DNA of 64,000 nt from positions 1 through 64,000 of the forward strand of contig NZ_JAHNZT010000021.1 in NCBI RefSeq assembly GCF_019039035.1, given 5' to 3'. Position numbers and translations under genes: made by a program. The stretch comes from Citreicoccus inhibens (lineage in GTDB: Bacteria; Myxococcota; Myxococcia; Myxococcales; Myxococcaceae). Numbering within the stretch: the first letter of the stretch is position 1; each line of letters starts with the position of its first letter. Under the pieces are notes generated by a model that saw nothing but the letters and a program-made list of their open reading frames with translations, searched no databases and was not told the origin of the DNA. Shown here piece by piece: positions 20,920 through 31,399 of the stretch.

Positions 20920-21153
20920 ATGTATGAGTATCACGTCGATGCGTTCGTCCCGCCCGCGCCCGGCTGTGGCGCCCAAGAGGGGGGCTGGAGCCCCAAGCGG
21001 TGCGGGGACTTCGCCAGGTTCCTCAATGGCTATGCCGCGCAGGGCTGGAAGCTGCACTCCAGCGAATACCGCGCGGTGACGTCGACGAAGGGGTGTGGCA
21101 CCGCGACGGGCTCGTGGCTCGTCTGTGTCTTCGAGCGAGCCGTGGCGGGATGA
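20920..21153 (+). CDS. Small DUF4177-like protein
   Basis: 77 residues from ATG 20920, chosen because AGGAG lies 8 nt upstream and because family members begin directly with MYEY. The frame could extend to 20854. The pattern MYEYHVDAF ... FARFLNGYAAQGWKLHS ... GSWLVCVFER matches small DUF4177-type proteins, with a conserved Gly-Trp after the helix and an alternating beta sheet. Four cysteines (GCGAQ, RCGD, GCGT, VCVF) are unusual and could bind metal. The stop overlaps the start of the yidD-like gene (ATGA), so translation is coupled. Confidence 0.75.
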   Translation: MYEYHVDAFVPPAPGCGAQEGGWSPKRCGDFARFLNGYAAQGWKLHSSEYRAVTSTKGCGTATGSWLVCVFERAVAG

Positions 21154-21509
21154 GCCAGGACCCCGCCTCCTCCCGAGCCGAGCCACCGCCCTGGGAAGAC
21201 ATTCCCTGCTCCGCCCGGGCCCTGTCGTCTCGCCGCTCGCCGCAAGCGCCCGTGTCCACGCGACCCGCCGCCGCGCTCCTGCCGTGGTGGCTCAATCCCT
21301 TGTGCCTGTTCGCGATGGCCTGCGTGCTCATGTACCGCCGCGCCGTGCCGCATGCGTGGAAGCGCCGGTGCATCTACACGCCCACCTGCTCGATGTATGG
21401 CCTTCAAGCCCTGCGCATGTATGGCTTCTGGCGCGGCGCCTGGCGGACCTGGGCGCGCATCCAGCGCTGCAACGACACCCTGTTCCAGGGCGGTGTCGAT
21501 GCGCCGTGA
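21150..21509 (+). CDS. yidD: YidD-like membrane protein insertion efficiency factor
   Basis: 119 residues from ATG 21150, overlapping the previous stop by 4 nt. The C-terminal 70 residues carry the YidD signature: RRCIYTPTCSMYGLQALRMY followed by GFWRGAWRTWARIQRCND, with the conserved Cys-x-PTCS-x-Y and RCN elements. YidD sits at the inner membrane and aids YidC-dependent insertion. It is normally encoded between rnpA and yidC near the origin, which are absent here. It also has an N-terminal extension of about 45 polar residues, so this may be a relocated or second copy. YidD function is inferred from family only. Confidence 0.85.
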   Translation: MSQDPASSRAEPPPWEDIPCSARALSSRRSPQAPVSTRPAAALLPWWLNPLCLFAMACVLMYRRAVPHAWKRRCIYTPTCSMYGLQALRMYGFWRGAWRTWARIQRCNDTLFQGGVDAP

Positions 21510-21532: not shown

Positions 21533-23173
21533 TCAGCGGCGCACGGGCAGGGCGAACGCGAGCTGGAAGCGCGTCCCCGCGTGCTCGGGCGGGACGGTGG
21601 CGGTGACCTGGATGGCGCGGCCGTCGCCCGTGGTGACGAGCTCGCCCCGGAGCTGACCCAACTCCGTGGCGCCGCGGAAGAGGAACACCTCGGCGGCCTG
21701 CGCGAAGATGGCGGAGACGTCCTCGCCGCTGGAGCCCGCGGGGAGCTGGTCGCGGACCCACTGCGCGAAGCGGACGATGCGCCCCGTGAGGAGCTGCGCG
21801 GGCAGCGGCACCGTGTAGCCCCCGCCGAACACCGTGGGCGCGGTGGCCAGCAGCACCGCGTCCGCGTTGCGCCCGCTGCCCAGGCCCAGGATGCCGCGCT
21901 CCTCCAGGCGCGCCTGCGCGCGGATGGGCAGCATGACCTCGGTGGGGATGAGCGTCCCCTTGTCGCGCCCCGCGGGCACCTCCCACGTGGTGGGCGCGCG
22001 CACGCCGCCGGGCTGCCCCAGGATGCGCGCGAAGGAGCCGGTGTCTCGGAAGCTCGCCGCCAGCAGCGAGGCCACCGCGAAGGCGGGGCTGGCGAACGCG
22101 ACCCGCTTGAGTGTGCCCTTGCTCTCGCTGCCCACCACCGGGCGGTTGAGCGCGACGCACAGCCAGCGTCCGGACTCGTCCTGGCGCAGCTCCGGCCAGG
22201 ACTCGGGCACCTCGTCGCGGGCCTCCTCCAACCCCGTGGTCAGCTCCGCCACGGGCAGGCCGAGCAGGCTCGGCGACACGGCCACCACCATGGGCACCTG
22301 CGCGTGCTCGCCCAGCAGAGCCATTCGCCCCAGCCGCGCGGCGTCATCGCAGGTGTCCGTGACGAAACACGCGTCGGGGCGCTCGAAGGGCTCGGCCGCG
22401 AGCGCTGCCTCCAGTGCCTCCGTCAAGTCACCGGCCCCCACGTCGAGCACCTCCACCGCCATGCCCGCGTCGGGCGGGCACTGGTCCAGGAGCCACTTGA
22501 GCCCGCGCCACGCGGACTCCATGCGCGCCACGGGCTCGGCGGCCAGCAGGTCCTTCGCGGTGAGGAGCACTGCCTCCTCGACGACGTCTCGCGCGGACTT
22601 CACCGCGGCCGACGACGACGTCGCGCTCGAGGCCGAGCCCTTGGGCTGGATGGCGCGCAGGAAGGCATCCACCGCGCGCGACGCGGCGGCGGGGCGATGC
22701 GGCTCGCCGGGGTTCAGCAGCGTCTCCACCAGCTCCGCGCCGGACGTGGTGGCGGGGCCCGTCGCGGGCGTCGGGTCCGGTGTCGTGCCCCGCAGCGCGG
22801 CGGCGACCGCCTCGGAGAGCCGGCCCGCGCCCACGATGGAGGCCACCCGCTCCGCGCCCGCCTCGGGGGACAGGCCCGCGCGGGACAGCTCGTCACGCAG
22901 GCCCTGGAGCGCGCGCAGCTCGGGCACCGCCGCGATGACCTCCGCGAGTTGGAAGGCGCGCAGCTTGTCGAAGGACAGCGTCACGGTGCGCGTGTCCTGC
23001 GCGCCCAGGCGGTCCACCACGGTGGCGCGCAGGCCGGACGCGGCGCGGCTCAGCTCGGTGGGGAAGGACTCGGAGGTGAGGTGGAAGCGCCGCCCCGTGG
23101 CGGGAGACGCGAACGCCCCCGCGACCAGCCACCGCACCCGCGCGTTCTCTGCACTCGCTCCGCTCTGACTCAT
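21533..23173 (-). CDS. TssB-TssC-like fused type VI sheath protein
   Basis: 546 residues from ATG 23173, with GGGGGAG 6 nt upstream. Residues 1 to about 110 resemble TssB/VipA (a strand-rich start, ESFPTELSRAASGLRA, then LSFDKLRAFQLAEVIAAVP and LRALQGLRDEL). A Pro/Ser/Ala linker leads into a TssC/VipB-like part: AVDAFLRAIQ, RMESAWRGLKWLLDQC, VEVLDVGAGDLTEALEAAL, HAQVPMVVAVSPSLLGL and WPELRQDESGRWLCVALNRP, all in TssC order. TssB and TssC are usually separate proteins of about 160 and 490 residues, so this is a compact fusion. No other tss gene is nearby. It may build a sheath-like or regulatory structure. Confidence 0.7.
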   Translation of the reverse strand: MSQSGASAENARVRWLVAGAFASPATGRRFHLTSESFPTELSRAASGLRATVVDRLGAQDTRTVTLSFDKLRAFQLAEVIAAVPELRALQGLRDELSRAGLSPEAGAERVASIVGAGRLSEAVAAALRGTTPDPTPATGPATTSGAELVETLLNPGEPHRPAAASRAVDAFLRAIQPKGSASSATSSSAAVKSARDVVEEAVLLTAKDLLAAEPVARMESAWRGLKWLLDQCPPDAGMAVEVLDVGAGDLTEALEAALAAEPFERPDACFVTDTCDDAARLGRMALLGEHAQVPMVVAVSPSLLGLPVAELTTGLEEARDEVPESWPELRQDESGRWLCVALNRPVVGSESKGTLKRVAFASPAFAVASLLAASFRDTGSFARILGQPGGVRAPTTWEVPAGRDKGTLIPTEVMLPIRAQARLEERGILGLGSGRNADAVLLATAPTVFGGGYTVPLPAQLLTGRIVRFAQWVRDQLPAGSSGEDVSAIFAQAAEVFLFRGATELGQLRGELVTTGDGRAIQVTATVPPEHAGTRFQLAFALPVRR

Positions 23174-23349
23174 CTCGGCTCCCCCCAACTGGAATAGGTG
23201 CCTCACGTTACCCCGAGCCAGAGACCTGCGTCGTCCGTGGGTGCAGGATTCCTTGGGAGGTGTGAATCCGAGAAAAGCCAAGGAGGCCCCGGACGGCCTC
23301 TCTTGCGACACTTCCGGGTGGGAAAGGTGCGCAGGGGATGCGGCCCCGG

Positions 23350-23364: not shown

Positions 23365-23805
23365 ATGTCCATCCGCAAGGACTTCATCGAGCGCACCCTG
23401 GAGCAGTTCGTCGAGGCGCTCACCCGCCTCATCAAAGCCCGGCGGGAGCACCGGTTCAGTGACTCGCTCAAGGCCATCCGCGAGACGTCGCTGTCCACGC
23501 TGGGCATGGAGTACAGCACGCTCCTCATGGCGGACGCCGAGTCCACCTCACGGCTCCTGGGGACGCCCACGCGCGTGAAGATGCTCGCGATGCTCGTGCG
23601 CGAGGACGGCGAGCTGATGAAGGCGCAGGGCGACCCGCTCACCGCCGACTCGCGCTTCCTGCTGTCGCTGGAGCTGTACCTGGAGGCGATGACGCTCGGC
23701 CTCAATCCAGACACCGCGGACGCCACGGCCATCGCCGAGCTGCGTGTCATCGTGGACACCGCATCGCTCTCCGAGCGTCATCAGCGCATGCTCGTCCTCG
23801 CGTGA
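23365..23805 (+). CDS. Small helical protein of unknown function (DUF6483-like?)
   Basis: 146 residues, all-helical by composition, with no signal peptide or membrane segment. The N-terminus SIRKDFIERTLEQFVEALTR and the following basic helix resemble DUF6483-type small helical proteins, and the second half (RFLLSLELYLEAMTLGLNPD) looks TPR-like. It is divergent from the sheath-fusion gene with a 191-bp shared region. I do not know its function. Translation probably starts from a leaderless mRNA. Confidence 0.65.
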   Translation: MSIRKDFIERTLEQFVEALTRLIKARREHRFSDSLKAIRETSLSTLGMEYSTLLMADAESTSRLLGTPTRVKMLAMLVREDGELMKAQGDPLTADSRFLLSLELYLEAMTLGLNPDTADATAIAELRVIVDTASLSERHQRMLVLA

Positions 23806-30103: not shown

Positions 30104-31399
30104 TCAACGCACGGGCACGCGGGCGAGCAGGAACTCCACGGCGTCGCGACTTCGAGCACAGCGCTCCTTGAACCCAGCGCTCAGCTCGGGCGTGCGCGTG
30201 AGCCGAGTCCAGTAGGCCAATGCCTGACGTCCCGCCTCGGCCCAGACATCGAGGGTGGCGGCGGAAGGGGGCAGCGGCTCGAAGTCGCGTTTGACGAGGC
30301 TCGCCCCCACGGGCGCGAAGACCATGGGCAACATGTCGTAGACGGGCGCGAGCCGGAATCGCCCCGGAGACTCCACGTGGAAGGAGAGATTGCCCGGGTG
30401 GCGGTCCGTGTTCCCGATGAGCTGACCGAAGGTGTCGAGCCAGCGCACGGCCCGCGCATCCGCGTCGCTCAAGCGCTGCGCGGCGACGAGCTGACGCGAG
30501 GCCTCGGTCCAGTCACGGCCCGGGCCGACATAGGCGTGCGTGAGCGCTCGCAGCGAGAGCAGCGGTCGCCGCCCACGGTCGCCCACGCGGTCGCAGCGCT
30601 CGACCTCGAGGAACCGGCGTCCGCCGATGTCCATCCAGCGTGAGCGGCTGGCGAGGTGGCCCGAGGCGCGAAGGGTCTCCAGCGCGAGGTGCTCGCAGAT
30701 GAGCAGGTCTCGCCAACGGCTCGCGGCGCCGCCTCGGTCGGTGTCCGCGAACTTCACCAGCACATGCCGCCCATCCACGAACGCGGTGAACTTGGGCTGG
30801 GTGCCGCCCACCGCCGCGCCCGTCGAGACCCCGAGCGAGGAGCGCGCGAGCTCGGAGTAGCGCTCTGGATCCACCGGGAGCGGCGCGCTCGCCAGCCAGC
30901 GACTCAAGGACTCACCGCCGAGGATGAGCTGGCCCGTGCAGTCCTCGCCTCGCCGGGCCAGCGCGAGCAGGAGTTGATCCGCGGACCAATCGAGCGGGCG
31001 GGAGGGAAGCTCCAGGTCCGGGTGCCGCCGCGAGAAGTCCTGCCCGAGATAGCCCTGCGGCCCCATCTCGGCGACGAAGGGCGGGAGGCCCGCGAAGAAC
31101 TCGCCGGTCCCGTCGGCGTGCTCGAACCAGTGCTGCCCGTTCGCGAGCAGATGCAGCTCACCGTGACGGTGGATGTGGCCCGCCTCGTCCACGCCGTGCA
31201 CGGGCACCCGGGTGCCGAGCCCCGCGACCGAACGCGTGTGCGCGTAGCGCGTGGCCCGGCCCTTCCCCATGCGGCAGACGTGCGCGCCGGCCTTGGCGAT
31301 GAGGCGCGAGAGCGTGGGCTGCGACACGGCGAGCCGCCGAGCCAGCTCACCGGCCTGGATGCGGGGCTGTTGGACCAGGAGCGAGAGAAGTTCGCTCAC
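30104..31399 (-). CDS. yjjJ: YjjJ/HipH-type HipA-like kinase-fold toxin
   Basis: 431 residues from GTG 31399 (AGGTGA upstream). Residues 1-55 form a winged-helix DNA-binding domain (AGELARRLAVSQPTLSRLIA). The rest is HipA-like: GGTQPKFTAFV as nucleotide-binding loop, VKFADTD with the catalytic-lobe Lys, GNTDRHPGNLSF as catalytic loop and LAPVYDMLPM as metal-binding segment. This domain order, with the DNA-binding part fused in place of a separate HipB, matches E. coli YjjJ (HipH). No hipB- or hipS-like gene is adjacent. Tandem 12-bp repeats start 13 bp upstream of its start, suggesting autoregulation. Confidence 0.87.
   Translation of the reverse strand: MSELLSLLVQQPRIQAGELARRLAVSQPTLSRLIAKAGAHVCRMGKGRATRYAHTRSVAGLGTRVPVHGVDEAGHIHRHGELHLLANGQHWFEHADGTGEFFAGLPPFVAEMGPQGYLGQDFSRRHPDLELPSRPLDWSADQLLLALARRGEDCTGQLILGGESLSRWLASAPLPVDPERYSELARSSLGVSTGAAVGGTQPKFTAFVDGRHVLVKFADTDRGGAASRWRDLLICEHLALETLRASGHLASRSRWMDIGGRRFLEVERCDRVGDRGRRPLLSLRALTHAYVGPGRDWTEASRQLVAAQRLSDADARAVRWLDTFGQLIGNTDRHPGNLSFHVESPGRFRLAPVYDMLPMVFAPVGASLVKRDFEPLPPSAATLDVWAEAGRQALAYWTRLTRTPELSAGFKERCARSRDAVEFLLARVPVR

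Follow-up and report, generated by a model that had tools for sequence, protein, structure and literature searches.

A tssB-tssC fusion gene of Citreicoccus inhibens as a putative accessory sheath gene of myxobacterial type VI secretion systems

Introduction

Can a single polypeptide that joins TssB and TssC, the two sheath proteins of type VI secretion systems (T6SSs), belong to such a system when its gene lies among housekeeping genes? This question is raised by a gene found in 64,000 nucleotides of Citreicoccus inhibens DNA (the window: the whole stretch analysed, contig C37 of a genome of 9.05 Mb in 123 contigs). Two canonical TssC genes are found on other contigs of this genome (C86 and C48). 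An initial annotation described the gene as a TssB-TssC fusion located outside any type VI cluster.

Each sheath subunit donates the TssB N-terminal strand and the TssC C-terminal strand into the acceptors beta11/beta12 of its neighbours (PMC5807055, PMC5813253). Both donated arms point towards the baseplate, and TssE is the proposed acceptor of the first-ring arms (PMC5813253). The composition of the distal sheath end is unresolved; it may be made of sheath subunits (PMC5813253). The T6SS of Myxococcus xanthus comprises 13 core genes in one cluster and an orphan vgrG2 (PMC5801462).

The fusion gene and its neighbours

Positions are those of the window.

21533..23173, minus strand: tssBC-like fusion gene (ATG at 23173, stop at 21533; 546 aa; coding sequence including stop)
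23180..23187, minus strand: purine-rich sequence resembling a ribosome-binding site (GGGGGGAG), just upstream of the fusion ATG, read from the sequence
22877..23140, minus strand: TssB-like part, residues 12-99, aligned to TssB 31-126 by hhalign
22715..22732, minus strand: LVETLL, residues 148-153, a degenerate form of the ClpV-recruitment motif, aligned with LLDEIL of TssC (hhalign, family columns)
21536..22627, minus strand: TssC-like part, residues 183-546 (hhalign against TssC, probability 99; VIA)
21743..21808, minus strand: PLPAQLLTGRIVRFAQWVRDQL, residues 456-477, the best conserved block, predicted to form the tube-side helix of sheath domain 1
21545..21655, minus strand: strands predicted for the handshake, acceptors at 507-515 and 518-527 and the C-terminal one at 536-543, from the secondary structure of the model
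21150..21509, plus strand: convergent flanking gene encoding YidD (PF01809), not part of the system
23365..23805, plus strand: divergent flanking ORF of 146 aa, family unassigned, kept beside the fusion gene in Myxococcus

The immediate neighbours of the fusion gene encode YidD, GNAT, DUF4177, the 146-aa ORF, ALDH, GTP cyclohydrolase II, DUF1688, PGA_cap and HipA proteins. They are housekeeping genes, and no T6SS gene was found among them; on this point the initial annotation is borne out within the window. The HipA-like kinase (30104-31399, minus strand) carries an N-terminal winged-helix-like region in the same chain, and no separate HipB was seen beside it. A plus-strand ORF of 700 aa overlaps the fusion gene. 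A chance or antisense ORF was nevertheless rejected, as family matches and conserved orthologues were found for the minus frame only.

Similarity of the two halves to TssB and TssC

Computational comparison shows that both halves of the fusion are homologous to TssB and TssC. In searches with Pfam models, VipB (PF05943) matches with E=6.7e-17 (61.9 bits, cut-off 27) and T6SS_VipA (PF05591) with E=1.6e-5 (25.2 bits, cut-off 24). Both cut-offs are exceeded, that of the TssB half marginally. The NCBIfam equivalog models TIGR03355 and TIGR03358 give 55.1 bits (cut-off 271.5) and 18 bits (cut-off 97.25); both cut-offs are missed by the fusion and passed by the canonical TssB and TssC genes of the same genome. 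Profile-profile alignments (hhalign) match residues 12-99 to myxobacterial TssB (probability 96, E=3.5e-9) and residues 145-444 to myxobacterial TssC (probability 99, E=9e-18); the TssC match region as a whole covers residues 145-546. Pfam VipB_2 does not match the fusion; the acceptor and C-terminal strands are still predicted, and the fold is aligned up to residue 529-535. Both halves are carried by one ORF in all intact family members.

The name given to the gene is thus retained, since both halves are matched by profiles and both fold and phylogeny (see below) agree; the same evidence backs the earlier suggestion of a sheath-derived structural protein. The size deficit, first estimated at about 100 residues, is of the right order: TssB (166 aa) and TssC (492 aa) of the same genome add up to 658 aa, against 546 aa for the fusion.

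Family, constraint and phylogeny

Full-length orthologues are present across Myxococcaceae, where the family has two forms. Long form: about 550 aa, found in the source genome (window), Myxococcus, Pyxidicoccus, Hyalangium and Archangium, including a named strain of M. xanthus (L075). Short form: about 470 aa, found in Myxococcaceae and devoid of the N-terminal region of TssC. A fully supported branch separates the whole fusion family from TssC. The short forms group together, again with full support, nested among the long forms of Myxococcaceae. The tree is to be read with caution, given its rooting and the long inner branch. Two matches from the same order (G141 and G143) were not counted as fusions: they span an in-frame stop, as expected of adjacent but separate tssB and tssC genes. 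No relative was matched in viral contigs, and the BFVD matches are distant phage sheaths. An assembly titled 'Comamonas sp. KCTC 72670' (L068, BNCN01000009.1) carries a Myxococcus-like fusion in a Myxococcus-like gene order and is probably mislabelled.

The dN/dS ratio between the window gene and its nearest orthologue, from a congener, is 0.155, which points to purifying selection and led to the rejection of a pseudogene (the pair L007-L009 was left out of this analysis: wrong strand, meaningless values). For the same two genes, the linker has a pN of 0.104, against 0.023 for the TssB part and 0.013 for the TssC part, which indicates that both folded halves are constrained. A decaying, functionless sheath relic could account for a gene that is detached, shortened and missing from some T6SS-bearing genomes. 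This constraint, the intact ORFs found across several families and the adaptation of a paralogue to a second T6SS (see below) make such a relic very improbable.

Orthologues located in T6SS loci

The fusion gene does lie outside any type VI cluster in the lineage of the window, as first annotated; this does not hold for Nannocystaceae, Sandaracinaceae and two MAGs, where orthologues are found inside T6SS loci. The gene order in Plesiocystis pacifica is tssB-tssC-tssA(ImpA_N+VasJ)-fusion-hcp. Enhygromyxa SWB005 has a similar order, and SWB007 shows the tssA-fusion-hcp portion. In the two MAGs and in Sandaracinaceae, the fusion gene follows tssF-tssG-clpV-fha, or clpV-fha where the contig begins later. 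The complete locus of one Sandaracinaceae genome (G204; L126/L127) encodes on one strand tssC, tssB, tssA, tagF, tssM, tssL, tssK and a tssJ-like lipoprotein, and on the opposite strand hcp, tssE, tssF, tssG, clpV and fha, then a pair of lipoprotein-like ORFs and the fusion; next comes a Ser/Thr kinase (assigned from the kinase domain found in the near-identical L085 protein). Canonical TssB and TssC and the fusion therefore coexist in one T6SS locus. More generally, canonical tssB and tssC accompany the fusion gene in the intact orthologue-bearing loci.

The canonical TssC proteins of these loci are 69-76% identical to the C86 TssC of the source genome, which itself scores 1013 bits against M. 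xanthus TssC (5urw). Type A: T6SS of the C86 TssC kind, M. xanthus-type and ClpV-containing. In complete genomes of Myxococcaceae, the fusion gene is located millions of bases from the T6SS locus; in G062, it lies at 145 kb, versus 5.92 Mb for type A TssC and 5.93 Mb for ClpV.

Two Sandaracinaceae MAGs (G198 and G199) have no other TssB or TssC match. The fusion as sole sheath protein was rejected: the near-identical G204 carries tssB and tssC past the end of the G198 contig, and their absence is very probably an assembly gap. The T6SS proteins of two Sandaracinaceae assemblies (L126/L127 and L109/L110) are 99-100% identical, and one contig stops just past tssM; a claim of gene absence drawn from that MAG would thus mislead.

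Lipoprotein-like ORFs adjoin the fusion gene in Sandaracinaceae and a MAG (L127 8111-10381, L085 8831-9895, L084 8721-9863, L129 6525-7691) and belong to no Pfam family where tested. In Sandaracinaceae, the opposite flank of the fusion gene is occupied by a conserved Ser/Thr kinase gene. The products of these ORFs and the kinase are possible partners of the fusion.

Co-occurrence with two T6SS types

The distribution was surveyed in 96 Myxococcaceae genomes, the TssC type being assigned by bit score. Type A TssC was found in 51 of them. It is present in all 33 genomes with the long form, and none of the 45 genomes devoid of type A has the long form (Fisher 5e-13, uncorrected for shared ancestry). 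Type A is the only one of the two scored canonical TssC types in 13 of the 33 long-form genomes, and all 33 harbour an M. xanthus-type T6SS with ClpV. The fusion is missing from seven type-A genomes of one genus (g5) and from several others, which indicates that it is accessory to the T6SS and not essential.

The short form is associated with type B in 14 genomes out of 14 (Fisher 6e-5, also uncorrected for shared ancestry). Its gene lies within the type B T6SS, beside genes for VgrG-like proteins (recognised by eye, with no match to a Pfam model), coiled-coil proteins, IcmF/TssM and an IglE-like lipoprotein. The shorter paralogue is adapted to this second T6SS. In the source genome, the type B locus of C48 encodes TssF, DotU and VasE, with a weak TssG match, and carries no copy of the fusion. 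This divergent locus spans L056 8574-19757 and L057 65-8489, lacks ClpV and encodes IcmF, DotU, TssF, VasE, two VgrG-like proteins missed by Pfam and an apolipoprotein-like coiled-coil protein. In L051, an IglE-like, Francisella-like lipoprotein is encoded at the corresponding locus.

That the fusion is a conserved accessory protein of T6SSs in Myxococcota, derived from the sheath and with its gene displaced from the locus in Myxococcaceae, is well supported. The more specific reading is given a probability of about 0.5: the fusion would serve the M. xanthus-type T6SS as an accessory subunit of sheath origin, and its gene would have arisen by the joining of adjacent tssB and tssC and have been displaced from the T6SS locus in Myxococcaceae.

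A putative ClpV-recruitment motif

One class of T6SS relies on an N-terminal LLDEII helix of TssC for the recruitment of ClpV (PMC4239648, PMC5048182). The motif of type A TssC in the source genome is SLLDEIL. At the aligned place, all examined long forms of Myxococcaceae and Nannocystaceae have LV-[EGD]-x-[LIM]-[LF] (LVETLL in the window), the two MAGs have SVDDLL and Sandaracinaceae a weak remnant. The type B locus lacks ClpV, type B TssC lacks the motif and the short form of the fusion lacks the motif region. Only one ClpV of the source genome is above the cut-off, and it belongs to type A; none was found above the cut-off in G004 and G038, which have only type B and the short form. The handle for ClpV thus appears to be kept only where the machine has ClpV, which is indirect evidence that the fusion enters the sheath cycle; its loss is one evolutionary event and hence not statistically independent. 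The retained LVETLL-type putative motif would allow the fusion to be recycled by ClpV along with the sheath.

The fusion could also stay free in the cytosol and regulate or chaperone sheath subunits or ClpV without ever entering the filament; this would fit a retained ClpV-like motif and a separate gene far from the T6SS locus, as in Myxococcaceae. Such a role is quite unlikely, as conservation is highest in the complete protomer fold and in the tube-side helix, both described below.

Predicted fold and missing arm

For the fusion chain, modelled as a monomer, AlphaFold2 predicts a single confident sheath protomer (pLDDT 86, pTM 0.84). The top ranks of Foldseek and VIA are TssC chains of T6SSs, with VIA Z of about 27-29 and 19-21% identity (13% for the Francisella chain); Z is 27.8 against M. 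xanthus TssC over residues 187-529. Single-chain sheaths of phages, pyocins and eCIS come next (residues 10-535, Z about 18-24). The model of the short form gives the same result, with poorer confidence (pLDDT 79).

The main departure from the canonical protomer is at the N-terminus. The stretch ahead of the first core strand is 31-32 residues long in canonical TssB, where it includes the arm RVNIIYKPA; in all 31 aligned family members it is only 7-15 residues long and shows no pattern of this kind. No counterpart of TssB 1-30, the N-terminal donor arm, was aligned in the fusion by hhalign. Most single-chain sheaths align from residue 10-11 of the fusion model to their own residue 21-25 or so (VIA). 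The possibility that the assigned start codon is too far downstream and cuts off a donor arm was rejected, as the longest ORF already starts at the short N-terminus in several orthologues, among them L036, L041, L044 and L082. Two segments of TssC (around SGMYKIAYSNEYGVFGGKPYG and LPRFLLRLPYGEKT) are also missing from the fusion, according to an alignment by eye.

The best conserved stretch, PLPAQLLTGRIVRFA, contains 9 of the 44 invariant columns within residues 457-468 and lies in a helix of the model (457-476). Manual alignment places it at the TssC helix LPYMFIMTRLAHY. By analogy with the attachment helix of known sheath architecture (PMC8894135), this helix may contact the tube. The model also contains the predicted acceptor strands 507-515 and 518-527 and the C-terminal strand 536-543.

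Putative position in the sheath

The fusion would join the Hcp/TssB-TssC sheath-tube as a minor protomer. Devoid of the N-arm donor and endowed with predicted acceptors, a C-terminal donor strand and a tube-side helix, it would dock by one link instead of two. An ordinary repeating subunit is unlikely, since one donor is missing while the predicted acceptors and C-terminal strand are kept. Docking by one link would suit a terminal ring (either the distal, TssA-capped ring or the first baseplate ring) better than the repeating sheath, and a terminal ring is, on balance, the most likely place. The distal ring is a reasonable possibility, still short of probable. Two points tip the balance slightly towards this end: the gene adjoins tssA in Nannocystaceae, and the distal end may consist of sheath subunits. 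It is proposed tentatively that the arm-less single-chain TssBC is a dedicated third sheath protein of Myxococcota, forming a terminal cap ring that stops growth, docks TssA and is recycled by ClpV, and that the paralogue acts likewise in the T6SS devoid of ClpV.

Alternatively, the fusion could be a baseplate-proximal adaptor that nucleates polymerisation and is restricted to the first sheath ring, the one built on TssE. PVC and AFP particles use several sheath proteins (PMC8894135), and specialised paralogues may act in this way; the predicted C-terminal arm, which could enter TssE, and the predicted acceptor strands for ring 2 are kept. The missing N-arm, however, would halve the link to the baseplate, and the Plesiocystis gene adjoins tssA, whose product localises to the distal end in E. 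coli (PMC5813253). This baseplate-proximal ring is rather unlikely. The VIA matches to PVC baseplate-ring sheath chains that start at model residue 1 are tied with others and were not used to assign a position.

Copies mixed into the sheath could also break the N-arm chain and limit either the propagation of contraction or sheath length. Two residues added to the VipA N-arm linker block contraction and yield non-contractile sheaths (PMC5797969), and the fusion family is naturally arm-less. With 19-21% identity to TssC, however, random mixing into the canonical lattice is doubtful, and such an interspersed brake is unlikely. A position or role other than a terminal ring or an interspersed modulator is somewhat unlikely.

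Significance and comparison with known systems

The fusion is probably an unrecognised specialised part of the myxobacterial sheath, including that of the model species M. xanthus. The sheath structure of this species has been solved (5urw/5urx) and it is genetically tractable; the fusion would be an overlooked sheath-related component there. As an orthologue is found in a named M. xanthus strain, its role is directly testable in that species. A naturally arm-less protomer offers a direct test of sheath ending, TssA docking and control of contraction by arm linkage. No natural TssB-TssC fusion or minor T6SS sheath protein was found in the literature among open-licence papers.

TssA, TagA, TagB and TagJ are, like the proposed role of the fusion, accessory to sheath assembly or recycling, and the fusion gene can adjoin tssA. 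As far as known, they are not sheath-derived, and no similarity to the fusion was found in the searches made. Specialised sheath paralogues of PVC/AFP likewise provide several sheath proteins per machine, but the machine differs and there is no close sequence relation to the fusion. Single-chain sheaths (pyocin R2, PVC/AFP, phages) have, like the fusion, a complete protomer in one polypeptide; the fusion differs by an identity of about 10% and the absence of the N-terminal arm. No phage-tail or eCIS gene lies beside it: the window carries housekeeping genes, and its relatives sit with T6SS genes.

The closest systems are TssB/VipA and TssC/VipB (M. xanthus 5urw/5urx; V. cholerae 3j9g), which share the fold, are homologous to both halves and are encoded in the same loci as relatives of the fusion in related orders. 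The fusion differs from this pair by being one chain, about 112 aa shorter, without the TssB N-terminal donor arm and two TssC segments, and by scoring under the equivalog cut-offs while coexisting with the canonical pair. It is predicted by the model to share with the pair the acceptor and C-terminal strands and the tube-side helix.
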